A stretch of DNA of 64,000 nucleotides from a virus. The DNA lies in IMG/VR virus record IMGVR_UViG_3300043446_003259, positions 1-64,000 of that record, one strand, 5' to 3'. The translations under genes were made by a program, and so were the position numbers. Position 1 is the first letter of the stretch; every line of letters begins with the position of its first letter. Of the stretch, positions 22,601 to 47,560 are shown piece after piece. The notes beneath the pieces were generated by a model. That model saw only the letters and a list, made by a program, of their open reading frames with translations, searched no databases and was not told the DNA's origin.

Positions 22601-25600
22601 GTGAATTTAAAAGTGTAACTCGTCTTAATTCTGTAGCAAAATTTGCACCTGTAAACTGTCTGAAAAACACTTCTTCAGAACCTTCATCACCAACATCAAA
22701 CGCAACATAACCATTATCAGATGTTGGACCTCCTAGTTGAACTCTAAAATAATCACTACCTGCCATTGTTGCATTTATAATATTAGCAGTTTGTGGCGCA
22801 GGTACAAATGCAGTTAAATTACCAATTAAGTTACTTGCTGCAACATTTCCAGTCGTAGTAATGTTACCAGGGAAAACTGTGTTGCCGCTTGCATCAAGTA
22901 ATGTAACCTGTCTTTGTATATTAGGTCCATTATATTGTCTAAAGAATATTGGTTCTGACCCATTGTCGCCGGTGTTAAAGGATACATATCCAGAATCTGC
23001 TCCGGTGCCCCCAACTTCTAGACTAAAATAATCTGCATTTGTAGGACCTGCAACGTTTGCTCTTATAAGTTCAAAAACATTATTACCTGTAACTGTTGTA
23101 ATTAATCTACCGCTAAAATTACCACCGTTAAATGTATTTGAAGTGAAGCTATTTGCACTCAAATCAGTATTTGCTACATTTATATTACCTACAAAATTAT
23201 TTGCTGTTATAGTACCACTGACAGATAAGTTACTATTCCAAGTTAGTGCTGCTGTACCACTTCTACCCAATCTAGCAGTTGAATCTGAACCGAATGTTAT
23301 ATAACCAACTGTGTCATTTTGTTGGCCTCTTACAGCTAATGTATCGACTACGTTACGATCTCCCAACCATACACTGTTTCCAACTCTAAAGTTATTACCT
23401 GTGCCTACATTATTAGAATGGATTACACCGTTAGCTGTAACATTGCTTGAGACACTTATGTTACCAATATTTAAAACAGGTGATGTAATACTTTGAGCAT
23501 TAACGTTTGTTACTTGAATAGTATTAACGTTGGTTATATTTGCATTTGAGTGGATTCCTAATAATCCACCTAATATTATACTACCATTACTTGAAATTGC
23601 AATTATATTTGCATTGGCGTTACCTGTTGTAATTGTATTAGCAAAAATACTTAAAGTGCTGTTTGATGTGTTTGCTGCATTGCTAGACAATGTGTTCGCA
23701 AATACTGCTGGAGTTGTAACATTACCTGTTATATTTGCAAATGGTGCTGTAACAGTATTGGTCGCAGTTATGTTACCATTATTTGCAATTATATTACCAT
23801 TTACTGTTACATTTGCATTATTAATAGTTTGAATTATAGACCCACCAGCACGTAAAACAATTTCCCCATTGCCAGTATCACCATTTGTAATTACGATGTT
23901 ACTTGTGCTACGACCAAAAATATTACCTGTAATTTGAGTAATATTGGCTGCAGGAGAATTAAATGAACCATTTATTGAAAGAGCTCCTGCTATTGTAGCA
24001 TTACCGCCTGAAAAAATATTACCACTTACACCCATACCACCTGTAACAACTAATGCTCCAGTTGTGGTTGATGTCGATACTGTACCTGAACGAACTCTAA
24101 ATCCTAAATTAGCTTCGCTTTCAATACTTACAGAAACTATATAATTTGTACCATCACTCCATACATCAAAAATTTGTCCTGTTGCATATGTTATGGTTAT
24201 AGTTCCTGTGCCAGTATATCCAGAACCTTCAAATGTCCCACTAGGTGACACTAAAGATACGAATTGTCCACCAGTTCTTAATCTAAAGACAAAACTAGCT
24301 CCTTGATTTCCTAAAGGATTTGGTAAAGTTATGTTATAATTGCTGCCAGTAATATTTACTAATGCGCCTGACCTTGATAAGGGCAGTGTTGTTGCTGAAC
24401 TTACACTAAGATATGAACCAATTAGTCCACTTGTGTTTATAATACCCGAAGCATTTATATTAGTTACATTGCCTAAATTACCTGTATAATTTGGTAAGAA
24501 ATTAGCTACATTTCCATCATTGTAAACATTTGTGTTTACACCTGTGAGGAAAGCGCCATTACCAAATAAGAAGGCACCCGTAATATTGCCTGCTGCACTT
24601 AATACATTTGCTGTTACACGATTTCCAGCAGTTATATTTTCAAATACACTAATATTGCCACCAAATCCAGAATCAATTGCTACGCTAAAGTTACCAGGTG
24701 AGATTGTAGCTACACTTGCACCACCAACCGTAACACTTATATTACCATTTGCTACAGGAATATTAATATTACTAACACCATTTGCAATACGTGCAACGTT
24801 AGCTGTTACGTTTGTAAGTAGTGCTCCATTACCTACAAATTGATTGCCTGTAATAGTACCTACAGCAGATATACTACCACTTGCTAAAATATTGTTACCT
24901 GACGCTATATTTCCAGCAGCACTTACAAGATTGGTAGCATATAAATTACCTACGTTGGCATTTGCAGATGCAGTTATGTTAGCACCATTTATGTTACCTG
25001 TTGTGCTAAGAGCGTTGCCAATAATATTATTTCCGTTAATATTTCCAGTAACTGATATATTACCAGATCCACTTAAAAGATTACCTAAATTAGCAGAGCC
25101 AATATTAAGTTGTCCTGTTATTGTTGTAGTACCAGTTACTGATAAATTTGCACTTGTTGAAATGTTTCCTGTTGCACTAATTGTACCAGCTGTCGTAATA
25201 TTTTGTCCAGTTACGGTACCTGCTGCGCTTAATGCACCTGCTAAATTAAGGTTTGAATTTGAAGAAATATTTCCTGTTACACTCAAATTACCATTTAAAT
25301 TAGCTAATTGAGGCGATATAACTAACACATTAGGTGTGCCACTTACACCAAAGTTAATATTACCTGCATTAATAGGAATTCTTACATTACTTGATCCATT
25401 TGCAATTGCTGTCCCTATTGACGGTGTAGTAAAACTTAAATTACCTGCTCCATCAGTAGTTATTACATCTCCTGCATTCCCTCCAAGTATGTTAAGACTA
25501 TCTATATTTGCTAGGTTTGCATTACCTGTAAGCGATAATTCACCTCCAACTCTAACACCTGTCGCTGTTACAGTAAAGACATTTGCAACACTTTGTACAC

Positions 25601-28600
25601 TGATTGTTACATTAGCATTAGGATTAACAACAACATTACTATTGCCACCTACTATTTGATTTGATGCTGGTAATGAACCAAATGTTAAGTTACCATTTGC
25701 GTCAACAACAGTTAGTACTTGATTTGCAATACCACCTGTTACTTTTAATCTAGCTATGTCAGTTAAAATATTACCGTTCGCAGTTAAACTACCACTTACA
25801 CTCACTCCAGTGTTACTAAATATAGCAGATGTAACACCGGTAGCTACTATGTTAACAGGACCATTAATATTTTGAATGTTTACATTACTTGTACCGTTAC
25901 TGATTTGTGATGTGGGTGGACTTGCTACCCATGTAAGATTACCTTGTCCATCAGTAGAAAGCAATTGATTAGCCGCGCCACCTGTAATAGTTACATTGCC
26001 TATAGGACCTAAGTTTGATCTACCTGAAACAGTGATTCCCGTATTTGCAACTACAAATACGTTCGCATTACCTGCCACACTTGTACGCACATTGCCACTT
26101 AGATCAATAGTTATATTACTTTGTCCATTTGATATTGATGGTGCGATTGGTGCGGGTGCGAATGATATATTTCCAGAACCATCAGTTATAATAATGTTGT
26201 TAGCATTTCCACCTTGAATTTTAACGTTACTAATATTTCCTAAATTAGCAAGGCCAGTATTTACTATACCCGTTGCACTTACTGTGCTTGTAATAATACC
26301 AGTGTTAGTAAACTGGGTAACATTAGGGGTACCAGCAACACTTACTCTTATATTTGTATTAGCACCAACTACTATATTACTACTACCATTGACGATACTT
26401 TGTGTTGCTGGTGCTGAAGCCCAACCAATTAAACCAGCGTTACCTGTTGTAGTTAATACCTGACCTGTTTGTCCACCTAAAATCCTTAAGTTAGCGATAG
26501 TGCCTAAGTTTACAGGAGCGAAAAAGTTTACTGCTTCATTAAATACTGCGTTTACATTACTAGCAAATGTCGATTGTTCTACTCTAATTCTATTAGCGAA
26601 GCCAGCAACTGTAAATTCTATATTAGCATTTTCTTCAATATTAATAGCACTAAGTCCATTAGCAACTCTATTTGCTGTAGGAGAAAGCCAAGATAAATTA
26701 CCTACCCCGTCTGTTGATAAAATTTGACCTTTAAGGCCTCCTAATATTCTAAGATTTGAAACCTGCCCTAATGCTACATTTGAAGTAAATTCAAAATTAA
26801 CGTTACCAGTAATATTACTTACAGTAAGATTGTTTAAGTTTCCTAAATCAGTGATATTATTTTGACTAGGTGACGTAAGAATTCCAGAAATAAAGTTTGC
26901 AGTTGCTAGATTCCCTAAGTTTGCATTACCTGTTCTAAGATTACCAACCACGCTTAATGACGTTAAATTACCCACTGCAGTAATATTTGCCTGTGATGCA
27001 AATGTAACAGTTGTTGCTACTAATGCATTAGGTACTTGTCCAGTTACATTAGCGCCAGGAATACCAAATAATCTTGAGGCATTTCCAGAAAACGTACCGC
27101 TTGTTACTCCATTACTCTTGTTAAAAGTAAGTGCTGATGAAGCTCCAAACACTCCATTGTCATTAAATTGAATACTTGTATTTGATCCAGCTGCTGGAAT
27201 AACTGCTGTTATGTTCGAGAATGACAAATTACCACTTCCATTTGTCACAAGAACCTCATTGTTGTTACCACCAAAAATTCTTAAGTTTGCTATGCTTCCT
27301 AAATTGGCTAAGTTACCTACTGTTAAATCATTTACAATCCCAGAAGAAATTATAGTATTTGCTGCATTAATAGTTAACTGATTTACGTTAGAGGTAAGTG
27401 ATGTTTGACCTATTGCCACACCGACGTTACTTACTGCTAAACTGCGATAACTATTAGCAGGAGTACCTAAATCGTAAGTATTTCCAATATTTGGAATAAG
27501 ATTAGATTGAACAAAATTTGCAACTGCTAAGTTATTAACAGTTGCATTAGAATTTATTGTCAGTGTATTAGCATTTAACGCATTGGATTGAATTGTACCA
27601 AATGCGCTAATATTTGAAGTAGATATTAAATTTGCTACATTCGCTAAATTACTAACAGTCAATCTATTAGCAATTGTTATATTATTACTTGAAATGTTTG
27701 CATTTACAGATAGATTGCCGGTTGAATTTAAATTTGCACCTGTAATGTTTCCGTTGGCAGTTACTAATCCGCCAGTTATAAGATTACCAACTGTAGCGTT
27801 TGCAACTATATTAGTAGTATTTGCATTAAGTATGTTAGACTGAATATTTGCGCTAGCAACAATTGAACCATTGGCACTGATATTGCTTAAAAAGGATGCA
27901 CCGTTTACAGTAAGCGTATTTGATATTGTTGTTAAAGGTAAGTTTGCATTTCCTGTAACACTTAGATTACCTGTTTGTATATTAGTGGTTAAAATATTAC
28001 CTGTAACATTAAAAGCTGAAGTAGTTAAAGAAGTTGCATTTAATGATGTTATATTTGCATTATTTGCATTTAAATTACTTACATTTGATGTATCAGCAGT
28101 CAGCAATCCAGTGATTGCAAAAGAGTTTTGACTTATTACTACTACATTTTGTGTATTGTTAACAGTAAAATTAATTGCATTTGTTGAAGGAATAATGAAA
28201 GTGTTTGTACCACTTGCCAAATTACCTCTTAAATTACCTAAAAAGAAATTAGCTACAACAGCATTTCCTAAACTTGCATTTGAACCTGATACTGTACCTG
28301 TTGTACTAATGGCTCCTGTTGCTGATAAACTTGCTACCTGTAAACTACCGCCTATCGTAGCATTACCTGATGCACTTAATCCTGTTGTATTTACATTTGC
28401 TGTTACACTTATATTTCCAGTGGAATTTACATTTGCTCCAACAACATTACCATTAGCAACAATTCCAGTAATACTCAACACACCGGATATATTTGCATTA
28501 CCCAAATTAGCATTATTCGCAACAAAGTTTCCTGCTGCTGTAATATTAGATGTTGATGATATGTTTCCAGTTACACTTAAATTGCCTGCAGCGGTTATAT

Positions 28601-31439
28601 TTAAACCTAGGATGTTACCTGATGCGCTTACAAAGCCTGTTGTCGAAACATTTGCTCCTGTCAAATTACCTGAGGCACTTACTACACCTGTAGTAAATAA
28701 ATTAGCTCCTGTTATATTACCGGTTACACTGTGTGTTCCAGTAACTTGAACTCCCTGAGGAGTAATTAACTCTACGTTAGATACGCCACCTACGCTTACA
28801 CCAACATTCCCGTTAGCCGCAACAGTAACATTACTATTACCATTTATAATTTGAGTGCCAGCACCAATAGTCAAATTAGTCAATAAACTTCCATCGCCTT
28901 GGAAGAAGTTTGCTCTTACTAAATTTCCTAAGTTAGCATTTTGACTAAGGATATTGCCATTTGCTGTTAATTGGCCTGCTATTGAAACACTCGCTGCAGA
29001 AACAGCACCCCCTACGCTTAGTGCTCCTGCTACCCCTAAAGGTCCAACATTAGCATTTCCTGTGACACTTAAATTTCCTGATGTTGCTAGATTAGTTCCT
29101 AAAACATTTCCATTTGCACTAAGTGCCCCAGAAGATAAACTACCTACACTTAGTGTGCCATTAGCAGTTATATTGCCAATTACAGTCAATCCTGTATTAT
29201 TAACTCTTACAACATTGGCAGTTCCTCCAGATCCAATTCGAATCTCTCCGTTAATGCTTGGTATAGAAACATTGCTTGTGCCGTTCGTTAGTTGATTAAG
29301 TGAACTTTGATTTCCTAAATTAATTCCTGTTAAAAATGCACCGTTACCTAAAATATAATTGTCTGATCTTATATTCCCTGTCGTACTAATTTCATTTGTG
29401 ACGATTAAATTATTTGTTGTCACATTGCCCGAAACAGAAATATTTCCTGAATTTACCTGTTGTCCAATTAAAGTGCCTACCGCACTCACATTTCCTGATG
29501 TGAGTAAATTTGCACCTATTACATTACCATTGGCACTAACTCGTCCCGCTGTAGTTATGTTTGCTCCTGATAAAGTACCATTTGCATTGATTGCGCTTGC
29601 TGCATTTAAGTTATTTGCTAAAACATTTCCTAATACACTTACGTTATTTGAATTTACGTTATTAGCAGAAATATTACCTGCTGTACTAATTTGAGTAGTG
29701 GCAATTAAATTTGCACCCTGTATATTTCCATTTGCAGTTACACTACCTGTACTTGATATAGTAGCTCCTCTAATATTAGAGTTAGAAACGATATTATTTG
29801 AAACATTTAAGTTTGCACTATTTAAATTTCCTGTTGCACTAATTGTTGTACTTTGAAGTATGTTAGTTAAAGGATTAAATGTTAAATTTGGACTTGCTGC
29901 CAAACCATCATTAATGTTATATTGAATTTGATTGGTTAATCCTGCAACAATGTCAGGTAACACAACTGGGCTCCAACTTAAATTACCAGTTCCATCTGTA
30001 ACCAAAGTATAATCAGGATACCCTCCGGTGATTCTGACGTTTGAAACATCACCTAAATTTGTAATACCGTTTACATCCAGTCCCGTCAATGTGCCAACCG
30101 TAGTTATATTAGGTTGTGATGAAGAATTTGCTATTAATTTTCCAGATAAAAAATTCGCATAAACAGCATTAGCAATATTTGCGTTTTCAGCAGTAATTGT
30201 GTTACTTGCGATGCCGTTTGCATCTGAAGAAATTGACGTATTACCTAAATAAATCGTATTGCCTGATAACCATAGTTCTTTCCAACGTTGTGTTGGGCTT
30301 CCTAAATTTTGTTGTAAATCATCTTGGGGTATAAGATTACCTTTTACTACACCAGTTAATGAAAGATTTCCTATATTTGCATTACCTAGTGTGTTTAATC
30401 CAGCTGATGTGACAACACCCCCTGCACTTATTTGTCCTGTAGTTCTTAAATTACCACCAGTAACATTACCTGTTGCACTAATACTTGAATTTGCATTTAC
30501 AGTTGTAAAATTAGCAGGCGCTGCGTTACCTGTTCCTAAACCAAGAGATCCTGTCAAGTTCGCTGAAGTAAGAAGCGTGGTTGTTATTCTTGTTATGTTT
30601 GCATTACCAGTTAATGATAAATTACTTGTATCTTTATTAAAGGTAAGATTTGCACTACCACCAAATAATCCAGCTGTATCTTGGAACTGAATTTGTGTGT
30701 TGGCACCACCTGGAGTCCCTGTGCCTGCTTGATAGAATGAACAAATAATATTACCTGTATTGGCAACTGCAGGGGTAAAACCTGTACTGTTGACTGCGTT
30801 AGCTAATCCTGGATCGCTATATATCGAAAAAGTTTTATTTGTTAATTTGACGCCATAATATTTGTTTGTATTGTTTTCACCAGACACCGCAATTTCAGGC
30901 ATACCTGCTACACCAATAATAGTTAGTGGAATACCAGTGACAATAGTATTATCATTAATTGTAGTTACAACTGCTGGATTGGCTTTTGTAATGCCTTGTA
31001 TTCTAAATGTGCCAACACCAGTACCTTCCCAGCTCAAGTTACCAGTACCATCTGTGGTTAACACATAACCGTTTAATCCACCTCTTAGTACAACATTGTT
31101 AGCAGTTCCTAAATCTATTTTAATATTGCTTGTGCCACCAGCGTTAACCCATGTATTTGCATTAGCTACTAACACTTGACCTGTGTTGACAGGACTGTTT
31201 AGAGATATTTGTGTGTTAGCAGTACCGCCTATTTTAGACCAGTTGAGTACAGAAACTTCTGTTAAAATCTCTGTTTGAGTGGTTAGTGCATTGCCTGAAG
31301 GGGGAAATAGATTAGGATCATTCCCAATGTATAATCTGCGTTCGTCAGTTGCAAACCCTAATTCGCCCTCAGCTAGTTGGGGCAAGTCAACGTTAGCCCC
31401 TGTGCGGTGTTGAATCTTAGAAATCTGTATAATAGCCAT
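16662..31439 (-). CDS. Giant repetitive tail-fibre-like protein (4,925 residues)
   Basis: One uninterrupted frame of 14.8 kb. The N-terminus (residues 1-45: QHRTGANVDLPQLAEGELGF then RRLYIGND) matches the N-terminal domain of phage receptor-binding and fibre proteins of the Mtd type. From there to about 24.5 kb the protein is made of short Gly/Asn/Ser/Thr-rich beta repeats of roughly 16-17 residues (S.TGN..G.NL..TG.IS). A distinct domain at about 24.1-24.45 kb (ITLPNPLGNQGASFVFRL...) separates these from five ~1.3 kb modules toward the C-terminus, each with a (W/F)(L/I)GD...GYI.FG....LGR.G...LT block followed by DYF...GG...G(F/Y)VS(F/I)DT blocks. The C-terminus is a small unique domain ending YINGWGIT. 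Role: most likely a very long adhesin or fibre on the virion; late box at 31470-31477. Confidence 0.85.
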   Translation of the reverse strand: MAIIQISKIQHRTGANVDLPQLAEGELGFATDERRLYIGNDPNLFPPSGNALTTQTEILTEVSVLNWSKIGGTANTQISLNSPVNTGQVLVANANTWVNAGGTSNIKIDLGTANNVVLRGGLNGYVLTTDGTGNLSWEGTGVGTFRIQGITKANPAVVTTINDNTIVTGIPLTIIGVAGMPEIAVSGENNTNKYYGVKLTNKTFSIYSDPGLANAVNSTGFTPAVANTGNIICSFYQAGTGTPGGANTQIQFQDTAGLFGGSANLTFNKDTSNLSLTGNANITRITTTLLTSANLTGSLGLGTGNAAPANFTTVNANSSISATGNVTGGNLRTTGQISAGGVVTSAGLNTLGNANIGNLSLTGVVKGNLIPQDDLQQNLGSPTQRWKELWLSGNTIYLGNTSISSDANGIASNTITAENANIANAVYANFLSGKLIANSSSQPNITTVGTLTGLDVNGITNLGDVSNVRITGGYPDYTLVTDGTGNLSWSPVVLPDIVAGLTNQIQYNINDGLAASPNLTFNPLTNILQSTTISATGNLNSANLNVSNNIVSNSNIRGATISSTGSVTANGNIQGANLIATTQISTAGNISANNVNSNNVSVLGNVLANNLNAASAINANGTLSGANITTAGRVSANGNVIGANLLTSGNVSAVGTLIGQQVNSGNISVSGNVTTNNLIVTNEISTTGNIRSDNYILGNGAFLTGINLGNQSSLNQLTNGTSNVSIPSINGEIRIGSGGTANVVRVNNTGLTVIGNITANGTLSVGSLSSGALSANGNVLGTNLATSGNLSVTGNANVGPLGVAGALSVGGAVSAASVSIAGQLTANGNILSQNANLGNLVRANFFQGDGSLLTNLTIGAGTQIINGNSNVTVAANGNVGVSVGGVSNVELITPQGVQVTGTHSVTGNITGANLFTTGVVSASGNLTGANVSTTGFVSASGNILGLNITAAGNLSVTGNISSTSNITAAGNFVANNANLGNANISGVLSITGIVANGNVVGANVNSTGNISVTANVNTTGLSASGNATIGGSLQVASLSATGAISTTGTVSGSNASLGNAVVANFFLGNLRGNLASGTNTFIIPSTNAINFTVNNTQNVVVISQNSFAITGLLTADTSNVSNLNANNANITSLNATSLTTSAFNVTGNILTTNIQTGNLSVTGNANLPLTTISNTLTVNGASFLSNISANGSIVASANIQSNILNANTTNIVANATVGNLITGGLVTANGNITGANLNSTGNLSVNANISSNNITIANRLTVSNLANVANLISTSNISAFGTIQSNALNANTLTINSNATVNNLAVANFVQSNLIPNIGNTYDLGTPANSYRSLAVSNVGVAIGQTSLTSNVNQLTINAANTIISSGIVNDLTVGNLANLGSIANLRIFGGNNNEVLVTNGSGNLSFSNITAVIPAAGSNTSIQFNDNGVFGASSALTFNKSNGVTSGTFSGNASRLFGIPGANVTGQVPNALVATTVTFASQANITAVGNLTSLSVVGNLRTGNANLGNLATANFISGILTSPSQNNITDLGNLNNLTVSNITGNVNFEFTSNVALGQVSNLRILGGLKGQILSTDGVGNLSWLSPTANRVANGLSAINIEENANIEFTVAGFANRIRVEQSTFASNVNAVFNEAVNFFAPVNLGTIANLRILGGQTGQVLTTTGNAGLIGWASAPATQSIVNGSSNIVVGANTNIRVSVAGTPNVTQFTNTGIITSTVSATGIVNTGLANLGNISNVKIQGGNANNIIITDGSGNISFAPAPIAPSISNGQSNITIDLSGNVRTSVAGNANVFVVANTGITVSGRSNLGPIGNVTITGGAANQLLSTDGQGNLTWVASPPTSQISNGTSNVNIQNINGPVNIVATGVTSAIFSNTGVSVSGSLTANGNILTDIARLKVTGGIANQVLTVVDANGNLTFGSLPASNQIVGGNSNVVVNPNANVTISVQSVANVFTVTATGVRVGGELSLTGNANLANIDSLNILGGNAGDVITTDGAGNLSFTTPSIGTAIANGSSNVRIPINAGNINFGVSGTPNVLVISPQLANLNGNLSVTGNISSNSNLNLAGALSAAGTVTGQNITTAGTISATGNISTSANLSVTGTTTITGQLNIGSANLGNLLSGSGNISVTGNINGNNIIGNALSTTGNINGANITASANANVGNLYATNLVSAAGNIASGNNILASGSISAVGTITGNQFVGNGALLTNVTANVARIANGVSNINIPVANGNISVTVGGASVATISPGNFSVAIDSGFGGNISVFENITAGNRVTANVLSAAGNITGAFLFGNGAFLTGVNTNVYNDGNVANFLPNYTGNLGNVTNINASGIINTSGLIGSYLSVSSATTLPLSRSGALVNITGSNYNITLPNPLGNQGASFVFRLRTGGQFVSLVSPSGTFEGSGYTGTGTITITYATGQIFDVWSDGTNYIVSVSIESEANLGFRVRSGTVSTSTTTGALVVTGGMGVSGNIFSGGNATIAGALSINGSFNSPAANITQITGNIFGRSTSNIVITNGDTGNGEIVLRAGGSIIQTINNANVTVNGNIIANNGNITATNTVTAPFANITGNVTTPAVFANTLSSNAANTSNSTLSIFANTITTGNANANIIAISSNGSIILGGLLGIHSNANITNVNTIQVTNVNAQSITSPVLNIGNISVSSNVTANGVIHSNNVGTGNNFRVGNSVWLGDRNVVDTLAVRGQQNDTVGYITFGSDSTARLGRSGTAALTWNSNLSVSGTITANNFVGNINVANTDLSANSFTSNTFNGGNFSGRLITTVTGNNVFELIRANVAGPTNADYFSLEVGGTGADSGYVSFNTGDNGSEPIFFRQYNGPNIQRQVTLLDASGNTVFPGNITTTGNVAASNLIGNLTAFVPAPQTANIINATMAGSDYFRVQLGGPTSDNGYVAFDVGDEGSEEVFFRQFTGANFATELRRVTLLNSQGNAVFPNQVSAVGFLGTSVSVSGTVTATSLVGNISTTGNINAGNITGNFSGTNANLVNLFATSFIQAPIIGNAASNIGGNVISGNTVSVTGTVSGASLSGNLSASLANVISYTGNNASLTANITANNFISTSTGTGNNFAVGNRAFIGDANIADTIIIKGQNNPANGYIIFGTGNNSQTLGRAGTGPLTYTGNISANGTITANNFIGNFTFANVDVNANSFTSNNFFGGNLVGTLTTNTITGNSTFQLIRSNIADNDYFRVIVGGTGSDQGFVSFDTGDQGNEPIYFRQYNGSNIEHQVTILDANGVSRFEDAVSNSFRGNLVSSPATSTTAVDIVSGTMAGTDSFRIQLGAIANTTNRGIVSFDTGDGSSNANAVIQFRQFYGNGFTTVQSNLTLLDQGGDTSIPGNVSIAKSLSVTGNINVAGTFTTGNVSATSNITTPSLTATTITSNANIFANNISATGNIRASNDIITTQDVQASRILSTGNITATGLVTGTTISASGNITGASLLGNVVSISGNITGASLLGNVVSVSGNINGNNVITNTLTSVGNIVTAAQNNTPNIFRISNKAWLGDIGINDTLLLTGNANAANGYIVFGNGNSSQSLGRAGTGPLTYTGNMSLSGNVTANNFVGNFNFSNGDVIANSFTSNNFIGRLISNNLTGSNTAVLIRGNVADNDYFELTVGGTGTNQGFVEFSTGDEGTEPIYFRQYTGATVTSNLTLLDGSGNTILNKNLSVPGNINLTSSGNLSTAGNVIANRIFGTLTASVSGTNSANIVQGTMAGTDAFRIQAGGTASDQGFLEIATADNGNEPIYVRQYTIVGSDPFGGISREVIVLDANGNSFFPGVITATGGISASGNVNVASNINITGVGSALRINNGNIFANNGLIFGDDIRGNTVTSATYVQANTELRVGTTGNVYIYANGFITTNNNINTTANISASGNINLGGNISATGNLTGNRFIGNTVSITGTATAASLVGDLTANNANIGNVTGTTSSVSGNVTGNLFISNGTGTGNNYRVGNAAWLGDITDADTVRITGIANPANGFIVFGNGNNAAKLGRNGVGALTYTGNMSATGTITANNFVGNFTFANSDVNANSFSSNNFFGGNFVGRLTVNALTGTSNAELIRANIATSDFFALTVGGTAADAGFAAFDVGDNGNEQIFFRQFTGAAPTRTLTLLDPNGNTILPNNLSVTANITTTSNVIANNFVGNLSMSVAGGVVANVINTTVAGSDYFRIQIGGSTDQGYVSIDTANEGNEPIFVRQYISTQVDPYAALNREVILLSNSGNTVFPGTVSVGGGISVTGAISAGGSLSVPNLSVSGNIVAAAIISATGNIIGSSNLSVVSGITAGSILSSGTLSANGNITTPANISATGLIESFGNMRTSANLCVVGNISNPSGNITSNNFTGNAVSVTGNVTAANLVGNLTATSAVITSATGTSSSVTGNVTGNIIISSATGSGNNFRVGTTTWIGDIGVTETLMISGQSNIANGYVVFGNGNNSARLGRAGTGPLTYSGDMSLTGNITANNLFGNVTLSGDLTANNFTANNFIGGNIRGLLTTANLTGTTNANIILSNIADSDYFRVVVGGTSTDNGFVSFETGDNGNEPIFFRQFNGITPRTLTLLDSTGNTNLPGSLSVVGNISTANNITANTFTGNLQITLSGTNTANILNTTIADNDYFRIQVGGSSSNAGFVSFDTANEGTEPIFVRQYTESGGNPYGTVARSLTLLDSGGNTSIPGSLSVGGLVSASGTVSAPQVVANITTPTLSGSNTANALYGGIATDDFYRIQVGGTGANSGFISIDTADNGNEPIYVRQYTNSGGNPFGTLTRTLTLLDSVGDTLVPGNLNISGAFSNVAIPAGGNARIGYRISPIQTKNSSYTLAVDDSDTLLYFAGQPGGTNLNIQSDGTSVLPFGTQIRLINGDAFQNVTVLPAVGVTLRYQGTTGTRTLAAYADTTLVKVAANTWYINGWGIT
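17100..23400 (-). repeat. Five-module higher-order repeat inside the giant fibre gene
   Basis: The conserved (L/I)GD codons of the five module heads lie near 23,362, 22,154, 20,876, 19,514 and 18,170, so the period is about 1.21-1.36 kb (about 400-450 residues). Each head reads roughly NNFRVGN..WLGD....DT...GQ.N..NGYIVFG.....LGR.GTG.LT. Each module then carries two sub-blocks with (E)PI(F/Y)(F/V)RQ(Y/F), and the last carries three, giving 11 copies in all. Copies differ at many residues, so the expansion is old enough to have diverged. Confidence 0.85.
20992..21087 (-). repeat. Near-perfect 48 bp tandem duplication in the giant fibre gene
   Basis: Units 20992-21039 and 21040-21087 agree at 45 of 48 bases and encode two copies of the 16-residue phrase SGNITGASLLGNVVS(I/V). 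This is much closer than other repeats in the gene and marks a recent in-frame expansion. Confidence 0.85.
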
Positions 31440-36082: not shown

Positions 36083-36090
36083 TATTTATC
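36083..36090 (-). promoter_or_regulatory. Late promoter octamer inside the end of gene 41
   Basis: GATAAATA on the minus strand, 19 nt before the ATG at 36063. Confidence 0.7.
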
Positions 36091-37513
36091 ACTTTTTGAG
36101 GCTGTTAAGCATAGCTTTTAATTTAGCACTCTGTATATCTGCGTTTATTTTAGGAATATCTTGCACAGAATCCTGTAATTCGCTGTTATGCGTTGGGGAC
36201 ACATTGCTTGAGGGTTTTAGTCTGGACATGATGTCATTAGGACTAGGTTGTGGATTGTTAAACTTTGTACCAGCAGACTGTCCATCTTCTCCCGAATCTG
36301 TGATTCTTAATGTTTCCACATTGAACTCTAAATCTATCTTAGTGCCTACCCCTGAACTGCTACGTGTTTTCATAAGTTGAATTTGATACTGCCCGCGTTC
36401 ACGCATACTGCGGCTTGTAAAAATACCAAACACATTATCTGCTGTATTAATCTTACTGATGCCGCCTGAAATGTGACTATGATCAAACTCAATTTCTTCT
36501 ACCGCACTGCGATTTAATTGACTAGCTGTAACTAGCAGCACATTCAATTCTTTAGACAAATTACGCAATTCTTCCGACACATACTTGTCCTTAATGAACA
36601 AGTCTGATGGGCTGACCTTTGCGCTGACAGGCATAAGAAGATCAAGATAGTCGATGCAAAGAAAATCAATCTTTGCTCCAGTCTTAATCTCATATTCCTT
36701 ACAATATGCCCGTAAGTCATTTACTGTACTCTGTGCTGGCAAATACTTAATTTGTAATTTACCAGCTTTCTTTGCCAACATCTTGACTTTCATTTCAATG
36801 TCATCAATGCTTTTAAAAATATCACGGCTGCTAGTTTCTGTCATCATACTGTCTATACGCATTGAACATAAGCCTTCGCTAAGTTCCAATGATACATAGA
36901 TACCAGTTAATCCTGCTTGACTCCAGTTCACTGCAAGATTTTGCATAAACAAACTCTTACCTGAACCTGAACCCCCTGCAAAGATTTGTAATTCACCTCG
37001 ATTAAACCCACCATATAGTTTGCTATCGACTGTAGCCCAACCTGTACTAATTTGTCCGTTATTGTTTTTTAATGCCATTAATCTTGAACGTGGATCAGCG
37101 AAATAATCAGTACCCATATCTTTTGTTATGCTGATTTGAACCGCATCCTTTATTAATTTTTCTACAGGATCATATTGACCTTTTTCTAATAAATCTGCTG
37201 ATTTAAGTATTGCTCTTTCTAATTCTTGTCTACGTGTGAATTTTTCAAACTCGTCCAGAAACCATTCAAAGTGGCCTTGACTCAATTCGGGTATTGCTTG
37301 AATTTCAATTCCGCAAATAGCTAATACTTGGTCTTGTTCAGGTAATACATTATATTTTTCAGAATGCTCTTGAAAAAATTTAGCGACTGGTCTCAATGAT
37401 TTATCAAAGTTTTCTGCATTCATGATGTTAGATACTCTAGTATATAATTCACCATTCGTAATCATCATGCGCAAAAAAAGTTTTTGTACATCTATATTAT
37501 AATCAGTTACCAA
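36089..37513 (-). CDS. 41: Replicative DNA helicase gp41 (DnaB-like)
   Basis: 474 residues. N-terminal primase-interaction domain, then a RecA-like domain with Walker A GGSGSGKS at residues 180-187, IYVSLELSEGL, IDFLCIDYLDLL (Walker B) and VLLVTASQLNRSA. It unwinds the lagging-strand template as a hexamer with primase gp61. The reading begins at a TTG that overlaps the primase end by 11 bp; the first in-frame ATG is at residue 16, so a TTG start is the best reading. The C-terminal 70 residues are hydrophilic and probably flexible. Confidence 0.9.
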   Translation of the reverse strand: MVTDYNIDVQKLFLRMMITNGELYTRVSNIMNAENFDKSLRPVAKFFQEHSEKYNVLPEQDQVLAICGIEIQAIPELSQGHFEWFLDEFEKFTRRQELERAILKSADLLEKGQYDPVEKLIKDAVQISITKDMGTDYFADPRSRLMALKNNNGQISTGWATVDSKLYGGFNRGELQIFAGGSGSGKSLFMQNLAVNWSQAGLTGIYVSLELSEGLCSMRIDSMMTETSSRDIFKSIDDIEMKVKMLAKKAGKLQIKYLPAQSTVNDLRAYCKEYEIKTGAKIDFLCIDYLDLLMPVSAKVSPSDLFIKDKYVSEELRNLSKELNVLLVTASQLNRSAVEEIEFDHSHISGGISKINTADNVFGIFTSRSMRERGQYQIQLMKTRSSSGVGTKIDLEFNVETLRITDSGEDGQSAGTKFNNPQPSPNDIMSRLKPSSNVSPTHNSELQDSVQDIPKINADIQSAKLKAMLNSLKK

Positions 37514-38468
37514 TTCTCTTCCTCATCATTTCTATTTTTATTTTACTTGTTGTTGCACTTTGTATTATACTTAACAGTGTAGCTAATTTGCCATATTTTA
37601 TTACTGCGTCATTAACATCTTTTACGTCCGGGTCCCAATCGGGCAGACTCACTTTAAAGCCTACTTCCAATGCTCTGTCACATGTTTCAAGTCCGGTTTT
37701 ATCTCTATCTGGAACAAATATTATTTCTCTGTTTAGTTGTTTTAAAAAACGAACTTGGTCATCATTAATTGTATTATGTGTCAGTGCTAGCCCATTTATA
37801 CTTAATGCGTCAAAAATGCCTTCCATTAATAATGCTACTTGCCAGTTTGGTTTTTGTTCGTCGTATCCAAAAACATAACCTGGCTGTTGATCATTAATAT
37901 ACTTAGGGGCTCTGTCATCTAAAAATCTACTTGTATGTCCCACTATTTCATTATTGTACAGATATGGAATTATAATCCTGTTAGCGTTTCTTCCTTCATC
38001 ATTTGGCGCTACATAAAAGTTATAATGCTTATGATTCACTTTTCTTGTTTGTAAATAATCAATATATTTTTTATGAATTGGATCCGTGTCATCTAAAAGT
38101 ACGCAGTCAGGAAGTTTTTTTTGTTTGAAAATTAATGGTTTTTCTTTAACAAACTTTTTACTAAAATCTAAAATATCCTTATTCTGCAGACTTTCAATAT
38201 TCCAACGTTGTATTTGAGTTTCATCAATTCCGCACCAACTTAATAATTCTCTAGTTCGTTTTGTGATACTTCTGCCTAACTCATAATGGCAACTGAATGA
38301 ACAATTAAAACAATTATATGTCCAATTATTACCGTCAAATTTGATTCCGCCTCTATGTCGCTTATCGGGCTTATGCCCACGTTTGTCGCAGCATACCGCA
38401 TTAAAACTATACCAGCCGCTTTGGGTTAATTTTTTTTTGTTTGGAATAACAGTTAGGATATCAAACAT
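37503..38468 (-). CDS. 61: DNA primase gp61
   Basis: 321 residues. A zinc-binding domain (C26/C27, H32, C53, C56) is followed by a TOPRIM domain with E216 in VALLMEGIFDAL and D254/D256 in FVPDRDKTG. It makes RNA primers for gp41-driven lagging-strand synthesis. There is no Shine-Dalgarno; TATAAT sits exactly 6 nt before the ATG, so the primase-helicase operon may start with a leaderless message. Confidence 0.9.
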   Translation of the reverse strand: MFDILTVIPNKKKLTQSGWYSFNAVCCDKRGHKPDKRHRGGIKFDGNNWTYNCFNCSFSCHYELGRSITKRTRELLSWCGIDETQIQRWNIESLQNKDILDFSKKFVKEKPLIFKQKKLPDCVLLDDTDPIHKKYIDYLQTRKVNHKHYNFYVAPNDEGRNANRIIIPYLYNNEIVGHTSRFLDDRAPKYINDQQPGYVFGYDEQKPNWQVALLMEGIFDALSINGLALTHNTINDDQVRFLKQLNREIIFVPDRDKTGLETCDRALEVGFKVSLPDWDPDVKDVNDAVIKYGKLATLLSIIQSATTSKIKIEMMRKRIGN

Positions 38469-39361: not shown

Positions 39362-39739
39362 ATGCACAACGACTTTTTTAAAAAATTATCAGAAAATCAT
39401 CCTTTTATAACAGTTTGTTCCTATTCAGGTCAAGACTACGTAGGTATAATACAAAACCGTGATGATATTGTTACAACTATATATGATTACGGTTCCATAG
39501 TACAAAATGAAATGCGTGAGCGTTTTTTAGAACTTGGGGAAATTTGGTGGTGGGAAAGTAACCGACTTATACCAATCAATATGTTTCTTAGAGAAGAATG
39601 GGCACCATTTAAAGCTTTTTTAAGGACATTTAATAATAAAAGTTTAGATATTATTCATGGCCCAGTTTGTAGTATGAGTGATTTACATAAGAAAAAAAGC
39701 AAACGTAGGAGCATCACTTTAGTCCAACGTATGCCTTAA
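39362..39739 (+). CDS. Conserved protein of marine T4-like phages, unknown function
   Basis: 125 residues. Characteristic phrases: HPFITVCSYSGQDYVGIIQN, GEIWWWESNRLIPINMFL and a basic C-terminus KKKSKRRSITLVQR. I recognise the pattern from cyanophage-like genomes, without assigned function. It is a lone plus-strand gene, with its own late promoter, that converges on the Pol III alpha-like gene (21 bp overlap). Confidence 0.78.
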   Translation: MHNDFFKKLSENHPFITVCSYSGQDYVGIIQNRDDIVTTIYDYGSIVQNEMRERFLELGEIWWWESNRLIPINMFLREEWAPFKAFLRTFNNKSLDIIHGPVCSMSDLHKKKSKRRSITLVQRMP

Positions 39740-40297
39740 ACGTTCAAGATAGTTCATATGTACAACCACTAAATGTGCATATGCAACACTATGACTTTTC
39801 TTAAAGCTATATCCATCTTCAGTTTTATCCCATACCGTCTTTGATACTTCACTCCAAGGTTTTCCTAATAAATGTTTTTTTGCTGGACGTATACATGCTA
39901 AAAACATCGCTAGTCTAGGAATACTATCTACAGGTTCTGGCATTTTTTGTAAATTATTATAATGGTTTCCTAAATGAACTAACTGTTCGACAAATTCCTT
40001 ATCTTTTAATAAATCCCAATTAGGAATGTTCATTAAGTTTAATAACTCTTGTTCGGTTTTGATTTCATTATATACGTGAACATTTAGTAAATCTAGTTTT
40101 AGATATCCTCTTTCCTCAGCCTCAACGTAGTCAATATTAGCCATATCATGAAGTGCATCATATGGTATTTCTGTCACGTATACTCCCGTATTGTGTTTAC
40201 GCATTGGACTTACATTTCTCATAGCTGCAGGAATGTGTTTAATATGTTGAAGTATCAAATCACGATTACCAAAGTCTATGTCAATATCAAAGTTCAT
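39719..40297 (-). CDS. Miniature DNA polymerase III alpha-like protein
   Basis: 192 residues that carry, in the right order, the signature pieces of bacterial DnaE: FDIDIDF (D6, D8, as the paired catalytic aspartates), RKHNTG (33-38, as the KHAGG loop), GYLKLDLLN (D69, as the third catalytic aspartate in VKFDFLG), IPRLAMFLACIRPAKKHL (126-143, as ALFRPGP) and DGYSFKKSHSVAYA (161-174, as GYGFNKSHS.AYA). The PHP, most of the fingers and the C-terminal domains of DnaE (over 1,000 residues) are missing. Its ATG overlaps the stop of a DnaQ-type exonuclease gene. Function unknown: a relic, an inhibitor of host Pol III, or an active mini-enzyme. Confidence 0.8.
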   Translation of the reverse strand: MNFDIDIDFGNRDLILQHIKHIPAAMRNVSPMRKHNTGVYVTEIPYDALHDMANIDYVEAEERGYLKLDLLNVHVYNEIKTEQELLNLMNIPNWDLLKDKEFVEQLVHLGNHYNNLQKMPEPVDSIPRLAMFLACIRPAKKHLLGKPWSEVSKTVWDKTEDGYSFKKSHSVAYAHLVVVHMNYLERLRHTLD

Positions 40298-40860
40298 TTA
40301 AGTGCAAAACCCTTGTCCATTAATTTTTTATATGCATCTTGTACAACCATTGCTTGGTGTGCTGCATCTTCTACCGCTTTGTGTGTAGTCTTTGTACTAT
40401 ATTTTTTATCTTTCAAACTAACACCAGCAATTTCAAATAATGTTCTTGTGTCACGCACTGTATAAAAAGGCCAAGGAATGGGATTAGGTCTTTCAGTCAA
40501 TGTTTGACGCATAGCCGTTTCCATTACTACTACATCAAATGGTGCACCATGACTCCATACTGCTTGTCGATTCCAACAAAATTTATAAAGTTTCTCCATA
40601 CAATCTTTCAATGGCTCTCTATCATTGTCACCCATAGCCTCTTCTAGTGCTGCAGGATTTTGTGTACTCCACCAACGGATGGTATCATCATTGATAACAC
40701 GATTGTAAATTTCTGTTTGATCTTCAAGAGTAGGTCTTAGTTCTAATTTTTCAACAATACCATCGCCTCTTGGATCAAATCTTACTGCACCAATTGTAAG
40801 TATAACACAGTAAGGGCTTGTGTCAAGGCTTTCAATATCAATCATGATATGATTAGCCAT
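40294..40860 (-). CDS. dexA: DexA-like 3'-5' exonuclease (DnaQ family)
   Basis: 188 residues. The DEDDh catalytic set is complete: D8 and E10 in MIDIESLDT, D109 in HGAPFDVVVMETA, H160 and D165 in HKAVEDA. T4 DexA degrades DNA from 3' ends; the same fold is Pol III epsilon, the proofreading partner of Pol III alpha. It is translationally coupled (ATGA) to the Pol III alpha-like gene downstream and overlaps the 94-residue gene upstream. Confidence 0.88.
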   Translation of the reverse strand: MANHIMIDIESLDTSPYCVILTIGAVRFDPRGDGIVEKLELRPTLEDQTEIYNRVINDDTIRWWSTQNPAALEEAMGDNDREPLKDCMEKLYKFCWNRQAVWSHGAPFDVVVMETAMRQTLTERPNPIPWPFYTVRDTRTLFEIAGVSLKDKKYSTKTTHKAVEDAAHQAMVVQDAYKKLMDKGFALK

Positions 40861-42181: not shown

Positions 42182-42874
42182 TTACCATTTTAATTCTTGT
42201 AACAAGGTTTTTACCTCTGTTACTTCGTTTTCTAGTTTTGAAAATTTAATCGCCCACTGTACAGGATTGATATAGTCGTATATCATTTTAATTAAATCTT
42301 CGGATAACTCATCTAAGAACTTTTTTCCACTTTCACTTTGATACAGCACCCATGGACTAATTTTCCCGCTAGTTATTGCATAACATATTTTACTTTTGCT
42401 GCCATAGCGCAAATAATCGTTTGGTTGTATATTTTCAACTTGTGCCAAATCTAAGCACGTTTCAATACTACGATGAACTGCGTCTAGTGGATTTTCTGTT
42501 TTGCAATAGTCAATTAGGTATTCTGTGTATTGTCTATCACTTGTCCAGTTGTCAATTTTTACGTTTTCTCTAAGGTAGTAATCCACTAATCTTGATACGT
42601 TAAGTGCATTTATGTCTACGCAATAGTTTCCAAACTTTACAAATGCTGTATAGTATGCTGATTTTATAAATTCTTCATATTTTTTTTCTTTTTTTGCCGT
42701 GCTGTGTTTTTTATAAAACTGCACGAAACTTTGATATCCAATTTGATTACCTCTTCTGTCACGTTCTAACCAACGATGTTTGTATTCGCAGATGTGTTTT
42801 AACATCGTACTTTCTCTTACAAAAGTACGTTTACAAAATTCACATCCATAATTAATATCCAAGATTTTTTTCAT
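42182..42874 (-). CDS. C2H2 zinc-finger protein, conserved in marine T4-like phages
   Basis: 230 residues. A zinc finger at the N-terminus has C11-x2-C14-x12-H27-x5-H33 (CEFCKRTFVRESTMLKH...). The rest is helical and charged with WTSDRQYTEYLIDYC and ends in a coiled-coil-like KLENEVTEVKTLLQELKW. A DNA- or RNA-binding regulator is plausible. It overlaps the next upstream gene by 23 bp, so the two are coupled. Confidence 0.72.
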   Translation of the reverse strand: MKKILDINYGCEFCKRTFVRESTMLKHICEYKHRWLERDRRGNQIGYQSFVQFYKKHSTAKKEKKYEEFIKSAYYTAFVKFGNYCVDINALNVSRLVDYYLRENVKIDNWTSDRQYTEYLIDYCKTENPLDAVHRSIETCLDLAQVENIQPNDYLRYGSKSKICYAITSGKISPWVLYQSESGKKFLDELSEDLIKMIYDYINPVQWAIKFSKLENEVTEVKTLLQELKW

Positions 42875-43439
42875 ATTCGCTTATTTGTGCATCGGATATA
42901 ATTTCATTCAATGTTTCAATGTCAGAAATTTTCAAATCAGGAAAAAGTTTTGCCAATTTATATTTTCTGTTTTGTATTCTAACAAACTCGCTGCTTATTT
43001 CAGTCAACAAATCGGATTCTGTTTTAGGATATATTTTAGTAAAGTAATCCTGAATTTCTTTTTGTTTTGCCTGTTCAAGTAGCAAAGTATAGTTTCGTTT
43101 AATGTGAGGTATCCATTTATGATATTGCTTACCCATATTTGGACTTACAGTGCATAACATTAACCATTGTAATTTGTTATGTTTAATTATATTCTCGTTA
43201 AACATATGTCTATTGGCAGAGTAATCTGTGTTTTGCAAATAGTATCTTTGTAAATCTGCAACACCTGATACAGTGCTTAACCAATTTAATAACATGAAGG
43301 GGCTAAATCCTTTTTGTTGTTCTACAGTAAGTCTATCAAAAAACCCATAGTCTTTTTTGTCTAATGCAGCTAATGCATCAAACAAAGGAAAGTCTATATT
43401 TGTAAACTTTTCGTCGGTTGCTAGTTTTTGTTTGGTCAT
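42852..43439 (-). CDS. Conserved helical protein, possible clamp-loader small subunit (gp62-like)
   Basis: 195 residues, all helical: FPLFDALAALDKKDYGFFDRL, GFSPFMLLNWLSTVSG, then KLQWLMLCTVSP..GKQYHKWIPHIKR. The GKQYHKW phrase resembles RGKRYGKW of T4 gp62, and length (T4 187) and neighbourhood (UvsW, replication genes) are compatible. There is no gp44 or gp45 in the window to confirm it. If wrong, it is simply a conserved protein of unknown function. Confidence 0.6.
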   Translation of the reverse strand: MTKQKLATDEKFTNIDFPLFDALAALDKKDYGFFDRLTVEQQKGFSPFMLLNWLSTVSGVADLQRYYLQNTDYSANRHMFNENIIKHNKLQWLMLCTVSPNMGKQYHKWIPHIKRNYTLLLEQAKQKEIQDYFTKIYPKTESDLLTEISSEFVRIQNRKYKLAKLFPDLKISDIETLNEIISDAQISEYEKNLGY

Positions 43440-43951: not shown

Positions 43952-45409
43952 TCACTTATAGTCTAACTTTTCTATACTAAACGGATAGTTAGCCTCACGA
44001 TAAAATTCTTTACGTTTAGTTAGATGCCTTTTCGCAAATTTACAGGAACTTGTTATGTCCCATATTTGGACGAAATCTTTATCTTCAGCCTTTCTGATAC
44101 CTCTACCAATCGATTGTATAACCCGAACGAAGCTTTTTCCAGGTTCAACAAGAACAAGGTTAAAGATACGGGGTATATTAATACCCACAGCAGCAACACC
44201 GTAAGTCGCAACAGCGACCTTATCATCACTCGTTGCAAAGTCATCATATTCTTCCTTCCTTTCTGTAAGTTTTGTTTCACCTGAGACAAATACACTACCG
44301 GGTAGTCTTTCGACTAATTCTTTTCCTGCATTCACTCTATCAACAAGTACAAGTGTATTACCAGTTTCTTTTACATTTAGTACTAGTTGAGCAATAGTAT
44401 CTAGTCTTTTTTTATCCTCAAGTAAATGCTTTAACTCACTTTGATAATTACTAAATTCTACATGATCCTGTAGTTGAACAATGTTAACGTGACAATTAGC
44501 AAGTACTCCACGATCTTGTAACTCGCTAGCAGCAAGTTTATTAATAACAGGACCAATGCTTACAAACAATGATTGACTGCTAAACAATTCTTTTGGTATA
44601 GTACCTGTAAGTCCCCAACGTATTGGAACATTGGCAAACAAACCTGTAAGCATTGTTTTGAGTACATCTGCTTTAGCTTGATGCACTTCATCAATGATTA
44701 CACAAATTAAATCTTCCATAAATGTTTGTAATTTTTCTACATTGTTTATGTCATCTTTGTTTTTAATTAGGTAGTTTAGGCTTTGCCAAGTACAGATTGT
44801 ATGTGTACGTCCTAATTCTTTTCTATCTCCAAAGTATACGCCCACATCTAACCCAAGATTAATATAATCTGTTTCTGTTTGTACAACAAGACTTTTATTT
44901 GGTACAATAACTATGCTTCTACCATACTGTTCTACACTGTGGCTAAGTGCGGCGGTCATTATTGTTTTACCTGCACCAGTTGCTACTTCTTGTAAGCATT
45001 GCGGGTTCGATAGGAAACTGTTAATTATTTCAATTTGATAGTCACGCAACAATATTGGTTGACCCTCCATTATATGACCTTTAGGCCATACTTTATTAGA
45101 AAAGGTATCTTCGGACACTTGCGCAAAGTTAAATGAATATGATATTGTACGCAAATCATTTAATTCAATGTCATATCCCATTTTATCAACATAGGGTATG
45201 ATTTGATCAAGTAAATTTATAAAAGTGCTACCACCTAAACTAAAGTAACTTACTTTCCCGTTCCAACGGCCTAATCTAACCGCTGGAAGATATCTAGCTC
45301 CAGGTACCTCATACTCAAACATCTTCATTAGTGACTTACGTTCTACCAACTCAAGTCCTTCTAATTTGCAGTTTACCTCATCTTTTATAATTATTTTACA
45401 TGGTTTCAT
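43952..45409 (-). CDS. uvsW: UvsW ATP-dependent DNA/RNA helicase
   Basis: 485 residues. Superfamily 2 motifs: LLRDYQIEII (Q-like), Walker A VATGAGKT at 142-149, IIDEVH with DEVH at 240-243, RWGLTGTIP (motif III-like), and the motif VI segment QSIGRGIRKAED. The N-terminal 110 residues hold the small UvsW DNA-binding domain. UvsW drives branch migration, R-loop removal and the switch from origin-dependent to recombination-dependent replication. It overlaps the upstream gene by 4 bp. Confidence 0.92.
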   Translation of the reverse strand: MKPCKIIIKDEVNCKLEGLELVERKSLMKMFEYEVPGARYLPAVRLGRWNGKVSYFSLGGSTFINLLDQIIPYVDKMGYDIELNDLRTISYSFNFAQVSEDTFSNKVWPKGHIMEGQPILLRDYQIEIINSFLSNPQCLQEVATGAGKTIMTAALSHSVEQYGRSIVIVPNKSLVVQTETDYINLGLDVGVYFGDRKELGRTHTICTWQSLNYLIKNKDDINNVEKLQTFMEDLICVIIDEVHQAKADVLKTMLTGLFANVPIRWGLTGTIPKELFSSQSLFVSIGPVINKLAASELQDRGVLANCHVNIVQLQDHVEFSNYQSELKHLLEDKKRLDTIAQLVLNVKETGNTLVLVDRVNAGKELVERLPGSVFVSGETKLTERKEEYDDFATSDDKVAVATYGVAAVGINIPRIFNLVLVEPGKSFVRVIQSIGRGIRKAEDKDFVQIWDITSSCKFAKRHLTKRKEFYREANYPFSIEKLDYK

Positions 45410-46528: not shown

Positions 46529-47560
46529 TTAACTACGTTTCATACATGTAGTGCTTGCAAGTGTTTTCCAGTTCGGGCTGATCTTTACCAAATCAGCAAT
46601 TTTCAAGCACATACGCAGACTAAGTTCATGTAACTTGTTTTTGTTGTCTTGCATAAAACTAAAAATTTCTTCTGCAATACCCTCTTCAAAATTGTAATCA
46701 CGAAACAGACCACCATCACTATCACGGTGCACCTGCTTGATACGCAACATCTTATCACGCTCAGTGTCAATAGTCAAATCAAGAAAGTGACAGCGACTTT
46801 GCAATGCCTCGAGGTGATCTTGCAATTTTTTAGACTTCACATTCTCAAATTTCAAGTTTGTGATGAAGATAGCAGAACCCTCAAAGTTAAACTGATCAGG
46901 GATGCCCTCACGGCGCAGCATAGAACTATCACTGTTCCAACAGATACGGCGACGTTTGCCCGAATCAAGTGCTGCCTTAAGAATGTTTAGTGAGAGTTCA
47001 TCTTGAAATACACTATCGCAGTCATCGAACACCAATACATTTTTCTTGTCAGAGTATTTGTACAATTGTGCGTACAAGCCCAGTGCAGTCATTGCACCTT
47101 TTACAACTTCATAACGAACACGCTTGCCAGCAAGTTTGTCAAACATACTAGCCTTTTCCAGTTGAGTTTCAACTCCGAAACTCTTACCTACACCTGGAGG
47201 ACCTGATACAATCATAGCCCGAATATCACTATTAATTGCAGCCTTTGTCATTTCATCAAGAACTGCAAAACGGGTAGCAATGCGATCCATTGCTTCTTCA
47301 TCAGTTTCAGTTTGTTTAACTTCTTTTGCTTTAAATGCTACAGAATTTGTCACGTTAGGTTCTCCATCAATAAATGTAATATCGTTAATAGAATTAATTT
47401 TTACTTTGACAACATCAATTGCAATGTCAAATTGACCATCATTTTTTACAGTAATATAGTTACCTTTTTTACCTGTCTGAAAATCTTTGACAAGTGTAAA
47501 TTCTTGATTGATCACAGGCTTGTTGCGATATTCGCCGAATTTGACAAGTACTGTAGTCAT
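46529..47560 (-). CDS. AAA+ ATPase (MoxR-like), marine T4-like type
   Basis: 343 residues. A beta-rich N-terminal domain of about 80 residues precedes an AAA+ module with Walker A SGPPGVGKS (120-127) and Walker B VLVFDDCD (175-182), then AIFITNLKFEN (sensor 1). It is not a clamp loader gp44 by its motifs and extra N-terminal domain. Such phage ATPases are widespread but unassigned; a remodelling role is likely. AGGAG precedes the ATG. It is the only gene on its transcript between a hairpin and the next small gene. Confidence 0.8.
   Translation of the reverse strand: MTTVLVKFGEYRNKPVINQEFTLVKDFQTGKKGNYITVKNDGQFDIAIDVVKVKINSINDITFIDGEPNVTNSVAFKAKEVKQTETDEEAMDRIATRFAVLDEMTKAAINSDIRAMIVSGPPGVGKSFGVETQLEKASMFDKLAGKRVRYEVVKGAMTALGLYAQLYKYSDKKNVLVFDDCDSVFQDELSLNILKAALDSGKRRRICWNSDSSMLRREGIPDQFNFEGSAIFITNLKFENVKSKKLQDHLEALQSRCHFLDLTIDTERDKMLRIKQVHRDSDGGLFRDYNFEEGIAEEIFSFMQDNKNKLHELSLRMCLKIADLVKISPNWKTLASTTCMKRS

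Follow-up and report, generated by a model that had tools for sequence, protein, structure and literature searches.

A probable C-terminal half of a split, minimal C-family DNA polymerase in an uncultured T4-like phage

A 192-residue protein encoded by an uncultured T4-like phage appears, from its sequence, to supply the C-terminal part of an obligate heterodimer in which a minimal C-family active site of the DNA polymerase III (Pol III) alpha or DnaE type is reconstituted, and the pair probably carries out short DNA synthesis beside a family B polymerase (Pol B). The gene lies in the window, by which we mean the whole stretch of DNA that was analyzed (64,000 nucleotides; positions 1 to 64,000 of the IMG/VR virus record IMGVR_UViG_3300043446_003259). 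A phage-specific minimal Pol III alpha consisting of two proteins encoded by distant genes, accompanied by a family B polymerase, has been described in the group 2.2 jumbo phages, where it was proposed that the enzyme may help to synthesize one strand or serve in repair (Iyer et al. 2021, PMC7824862); no functional test of the split polymerase was found in the literature searched. New here are a member from an uncultured phage, the precise position of the split and the borders of the deletions, the invariance of the catalytic residues in 118 homologues, the occurrence in an Alishewanella phage, and a lineage-specific exonuclease.

The C-terminal half and its relation to DnaE

The open reading frame that encodes the C-terminal half (C-half) lies on the minus strand, and the motifs quoted for it in an earlier note, made from the sequence alone, are all present. 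That note had read the protein as a miniature Pol III alpha coupled to a DnaQ-type exonuclease. The features of the gene are as follows.

39719..40297 (-), putative C-terminal half of a split minimal C-family (DnaE-like) polymerase, 192 aa, ATG start
40262..40288 (-), first metal-binding motif, codons 4 to 12 (DIDIDFGNR), equivalent to E. coli D401/D403/D405, with the split point just before it
40079..40099 (-), codons 67 to 73 (KLDLLNV), in which K67 and D69 are equivalent to E. coli K553 and D555

The protein matched PHROG 11778, a family annotated as "DNA polymerase," over its full length (1.4e-53; residues 3 to 186 of 192), and matches to the full-length phage Pol III alpha families were weaker. 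Pfam returned no match, and neither single-sequence nor profile searches of the PDB sequences returned a match to Pol III. In a comparison of profiles, an alignment of 28 family members, the most distant of them about 34% identical to the window protein, matched a DnaE-core profile built from nine sequences (E. coli and eight phage enzymes) with 97.3% probability (E=2.2e-11) over 107 columns, whereas 100 column-shuffled versions of the alignment peaked at 1.3% and the reversed alignment gave 0.7%. The match to the lone E. coli DnaE sequence was weak (14%), a weakness that the nine-sequence DnaE profile resolved. The phage family likewise showed no variation at 10 of the 12 invariant DnaE-core positions that aligned to the C-half (hypergeometric p=4e-10). 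By these comparisons, which exclude chance, the C-half is a true homologue of Pol III alpha, and the homology proposed in the earlier note stands.

Seven residues (D4, D6, D8, H35, G38, K67, and D69) were invariant across 118 distinct C-half homologues and correspond by alignment to D401, D403, D405, H511, G514, K553, and D555, respectively, of the E. coli enzyme. The metal ligands are D401, D403, and D555; every DnaE group keeps D405, and PolC has Asn in its place (PMC3919608). The earlier note had stated that all of the catalytic aspartates are kept and had named conservation across homologues as a check; D4, D6, D8, and D69 never change among the 118 sequences. Its assignment of the first two ligands to D6 and D8 was shifted by one, the correct set being D4, D6, and D69 with D8 equivalent to D405, a shift that leaves the argument for Pol III alpha homology unaffected. 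The ratio of nonsynonymous to synonymous substitution (dN/dS, 0.05 to 0.19) indicates strong purifying selection on the C-half.

Two intervals of the DnaE core are greatly shortened in the phage family. The spacing between D405 and H511 is 95 to 124 aa in DnaE versus 25 to 29 in the phage proteins, and that between the RP motif and FN(KSH) is 106 to 123 versus 27 to 36; the segments between the two shortened gaps are similar in length to those of DnaE. From the DnaE domain order and the E. coli structure, we take the first gap to be the thumb and the second to be the distal fingers, to which the YQE and LRRAMGKK blocks belong. What remains of the fingers in the C-half is short and helical and carries the motifs IRP and FKKSHSVAYA. 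The YQE block and LRRAMGKK, near universal among DnaE fingers residues, are missing from the phage family, so the handling of both the deoxynucleoside triphosphate and the template would have to differ from that in DnaE.

The partner half and the point of the split

The start of the C-half coincides exactly with the DnaE motif PDFDIDF, and the GRGS triphosphate-binding loop, which belongs to the part of the palm just before this motif, is absent from the chain. The suggestion of a self-contained mini-alpha therefore fails, because the protein begins at DIDID and the triphosphate-binding half is encoded by a separate gene. The Pfam model of Pol III alpha picked out that second protein, of ~170 residues, in each of the eight complete relatives tested and in two metagenomic contigs, and a profile search with this N-terminal half (N-half) was positive in two further genomes and in 19 of 22 long contigs. 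The N-half corresponds to PHROG 11127 and the C-half to PHROG 11778. The N-half profile matched DnaE with 97.7% probability, and GRGS was invariant in 31 aligned N-halves.

The C-termini of the N-halves read ...EFL[KR] followed by 0 to 3 extra residues in all 78 pattern matches. This end is equivalent to the DnaE motif ERFLN, which directly precedes the point at which the C-half starts (M...DIDID), and the concatenated N-half and C-half gave a single alignment to DnaE that was collinear through the junction (99.4%, E=1.4e-21). Since the end of one protein abuts the start of the other and the joined halves are collinear with DnaE, the C-half is best understood as one half of a split enzyme. The sequences point to one ancient split, made at one place. 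Absent from the joined halves are the PHP domain, the thumb, the distal fingers, the beta-binding and OB domains, and all of the C-terminal domains.

Searches with the concatenated query found no fused or adjacent halves in the phage records, where no place covered 80% of it, or in IMG/VR. Apparent upstream extensions toward a fusion were rejected because they pass through stop codons or nonhomologous sequence. The family phrog_21652 (476 aa) has the appearance of a possible fused form. The gp30/gp32 pair of Thomasclavelia TR-TP2 resembles a DnaE interrupted by an HNH gene and was set aside as lying outside the split-polymerase family. A split of a different kind is seen in Gordonia phage Madi, in which the annotation divides a full-size DnaE-like polymerase between two neighboring genes, gp64 and gp65, of 318 and 811 residues (L208, 1671-5062).

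Structure predictions are consistent with a palm that cannot form until the two halves meet, although they are no proof of it. In an AlphaFold model of the C-half alone, residues 1 to 70 (the palm part) were unfolded (pLDDT 33 to 46) and residues 81 to 150 (the helical part) were mostly folded (pLDDT 77 to 95). An unfolded palm part would be expected if the palm needs its partner, and the poor model was not counted against homology because the modeled chain is without the strands of the N-half. A Foldseek search of the PDB with this model gave no match, a result that is uninformative at such confidence. The model of the N-half had a pLDDT of 84, and its top seven PDB matches were all to Pol III alpha, each with E>0.1.

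Carriers and genomic setting

Both halves were present in all 10 whole cultured phage genomes tested (one of these, Vibrio phage 2.275.O, is titled as partial) and in 15 long metagenomic contigs from IMG/VR. In 14 of the 15 contigs, the N-half lies about 35 to 65 kb downstream of the C-half on the same strand; in a rearranged group (G014, G016, and G017), the order is reversed, with the C-half about 95 kb downstream of the N-half. Contigs with a single half end before the expected place of the other, once the rearranged order is allowed for. No N-half was found in the 68-kb record from which the window is taken; transcription of the C-half runs toward position 1, and about 40 kb of the record lies downstream of it, presumably not enough to reach the place where the N-half would be expected.

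The gene is carried by at least about 575 metagenomic contigs and 90 phage records, including phages isolated against E. coli, Klebsiella, and P. aeruginosa, and the split polymerase also occurs in a 141-kb Alishewanella phage. Four contigs from genome collections carry the gene. All are contigs of metagenome-assembled genomes (MAGs), at least one (L219) has the same phage gene order, and the four are taken as phage sequence. The MAGs of L218, L219, and L220 are labeled Natrialbaceae archaeon, Rickettsiales bacterium, and Pacearchaeota archaeon, respectively, and these contigs are probably binned phage. In Atu_ph07 (RefSeq NC_042013 gp074; L043, 4986-5561), the annotated coding sequence starts 27 codons late (at 5067), so the deposited protein is without the DIDID motif even though the motif is present in the longer open reading frame. 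The C-half is labeled "putative membrane protein" in JN882285 (GAP32), KU574722 (CBB), MT708547 (Muenster), and other jumbo phage records, a label that seems to be a misannotation passed from record to record.

Around the C-half, the window contains the following genes.

36089..37513 (-), DnaB-like replicative helicase (gp41-like), PHROG 19, 1.4e-68
37503..38468 (-), DNA primase (gp61-like), PHROG 47, 3.6e-36
39362..39739 (+), small convergent gene, PHROG 11637; its 3' end overlaps the polymerase half, an arrangement found in nearly all relatives
42182..42874 (-), conserved neighbor, PHROG 11058; where relatives have no exonuclease, it immediately precedes the polymerase half
42852..43439 (-), conserved neighbor, PHROG 11758, a possible clamp loader small subunit (weak clamp-loader family match, E 0.02)
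43952..45409 (-), UvsW-like helicase at the start of the conserved replication cassette; homologues are annotated as UvsW/DEAD helicase

The order of this cassette in relatives is UvsW, PHROG 11279, PHROG 11758, PHROG 11058, the C-half, the convergent PHROG 11637, a further gene, the primase, and the DnaB-like helicase. In L138 and PBECO4, a clamp loader ATPase is encoded by the fourth gene after the N-half, and a family B polymerase was found in all eight of the related complete genomes tested. The cassette, the clamp loader near the N-half, and the family B polymerase of the eight relatives together indicate that both halves belong to the replication and recombination machinery. The earlier note had called a C-family fragment beside a family B polymerase unexpected; the surprise was reasonable and the coexistence holds in eight of eight complete relatives, but the arrangement had been published in 2021. 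No family B polymerase was found in the partial 68-kb record of the window phage.

Three further observations concern the surroundings. Relatives both cultured and uncultured retain the convergent PHROG 11637 gene, at identities of 34% or more. Upstream of the UvsW gene, at 46529-47560 (-), the window encodes a conserved AAA+ ATPase-like protein (PHROG 1250, 8.6e-88) with weak similarity to clamp loaders and helicase loaders. A single open reading frame of 4925 residues at 16662-31439 (-), composed of repeated "GNITG...NLSVTGN..." units, probably encodes a giant tail fibre or surface protein.

Proposed activity and comparison with known systems

In the mechanism that we propose, the N-terminal subunit would contribute the GRGSS loop, which in DnaE binds the incoming triphosphate, together with the beginning of the palm, and the C-terminal subunit would contribute the metal-binding aspartates D4, D6, and D69, the lysine K67, and the shortened helical part of the fingers. 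A complex without PHP, thumb, distal fingers, beta-binding, and OB parts would be expected to be a distributive enzyme that makes short stretches of DNA. Alongside the family B replicase of the phage, such synthesis could serve to fill gaps, repair DNA, or extend primers, possibly with the help of the phage clamp loader, helicase-primase, and single-stranded DNA-binding protein (SSB). Physical assembly of the two halves is probable, and nucleotidyl transfer by the pair is only slightly less so. Polymerization of DNA by the pair is a somewhat less secure prediction that we nevertheless consider likely on balance, and a role in gap filling or repair is proposed tentatively.

A first alternative is that the reconstituted dimer is a nucleotidyltransferase rather than a template-directed DNA polymerase; such an enzyme, with the pol-beta fold and without the thumb and the distal fingers that it once had, would attach nucleotides to the ends of DNA, to RNA, or to protein. 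The retention of every catalytic residue alongside the loss of the thumb and most of the template-handling fingers would suit such an enzyme, as would the presence of a full family B polymerase in these phages. We nevertheless regard it as unlikely, since the fingers motifs that remain (IRP and FKKSHxxxYA) are strictly kept and both half genes sit among replication genes, which together favor DNA synthesis.

A second alternative, put forward in the earlier note, concerns the gene immediately upstream of the C-half.

40294..40860 (-), DEDDh 3'-5' exonuclease, Rv2179c-like/DexA-like, overlapping the polymerase half by ATGA

The overlap of the two open reading frames (40297-40294, minus strand) is real, and the exonuclease looks as complete as had been claimed, with D-x-E (8-10), H-x4-D (160-165), and the central D all present. 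Its assignment to the DnaQ/epsilon type did not hold up: the protein matched PF16473 (Rv2179c-like) at 3.8e-35 (121.6 bits against a cutoff of 27) versus 0.028 for the epsilon model. A weak PDB match (0.004) was to 8kel, a 227-aa exodeoxyribonuclease that we take, from its length and name, to be T4 DexA. Among 129 loci, the exonuclease gene was directly adjacent to the C-half in 71, with the ATGA overlap in 68, and lay elsewhere upstream within 1.3 kb (or overlapped slightly) in 29; it was not found in the remainder, 8 of which had too little upstream sequence to judge. No relative below about 58% identity that could be judged had it beside the C-half, and it went undetected anywhere in the eight whole genomes. 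The coupling of exonuclease and polymerase half is thus real but limited to the lineage of the window phage.

The frequent adjacency and overlap of the two genes would be expected if the exonuclease and the C-half formed a reduced alpha-epsilon pair of polymerase and proofreader. This reading is improbable, because the exonuclease is related to DexA rather than to epsilon and is absent near the gene in distant relatives and from the eight whole genomes, whereas the N-half is always present. The alpha-epsilon pair is accordingly not the defining unit, and the exonuclease is at most a lineage-specific addition to the split polymerase.

A third alternative is that the C-half has no catalytic activity and binds the host Pol III holoenzyme as a decoy or inhibitor. 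This would suit a fragment of a host replisome protein, and phage-made inhibitors of the host replisome exist, but it is very improbable, being hard to square with the absolute conservation of D4, D6, D69, and K67 in 118 sequences, the strict pairing with an N-half whose GRGSS loop is intact, and the lack of all of the domains through which alpha contacts the beta clamp, tau, and epsilon.

Returning to the split polymerase, a fuller picture can be offered with less confidence than its parts. Within a very large group of T4-like phages, a thumbless two-subunit derivative of the bacterial replicase, with an active site only where the products of distant genes meet, may have become a dedicated second polymerase (or a new nucleotidyltransferase) beside the family B replicase, and a DexA-like proofreading exonuclease may have been recruited in the lineage of the window phage. 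Should the two halves prove active together, their complex would rank with the smallest C-family polymerase cores and would reveal which parts of the bacterial replicase the chemistry can do without. Synthesis in phages would then be shared between two polymerases from unrelated families. With the split point and the deletion borders defined exactly, constructs are easy to design.

The closest known system is the split minimal Pol III alpha of the jumbo phages (PHROG 11778 plus PHROG 11127), in which the window protein is a member of the C-half family. The authors of the CBB genome noted a truncated alpha of 172 residues (PMC5259590), and those of the Atu_ph07 genome listed alpha and epsilon subunits (PMC6102473). 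The window phage differs from the cultured members in being uncultured, with a sequence identity to them of about 28 to 48%, and its lineage adds the adjacent, often ATGA-overlapping DexA-like exonuclease; T4-like replication genes (UvsW, primase, and DnaB helicase) surround the window gene as well. With bacterial DnaE, the phage enzyme shares collinear core motifs, including the equivalents of D401/D403/D555, D405, K553, and H511 and the RP and FNKSH-type motifs, but it is without the PHP, thumb, distal fingers, HhH/beta-binding, OB, and C-terminal domains and is divided into two proteins by a cut before PDFDIDF. The C-family palm is shared with PolC also; unlike PolC, which has Asn at the position of D8, the phage protein has Asp as in the DnaE groups (PMC3919608), and it has no built-in exonuclease. 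The full-length DnaE enzymes of smaller phages (such as Streptomyces phage Toma, Bacillus phage Finn, and Pseudomonas phage 14-1) are likewise phage-borne C-family polymerases but, unlike the split polymerase, keep the thumb and the full fingers in one chain. The T4 DexA and Rv2179c-like exonucleases (PF16473) have the DEDDh residues in common with the window exonuclease, and in the lineage of the window phage, the gene for such an enzyme adjoins a polymerase half.
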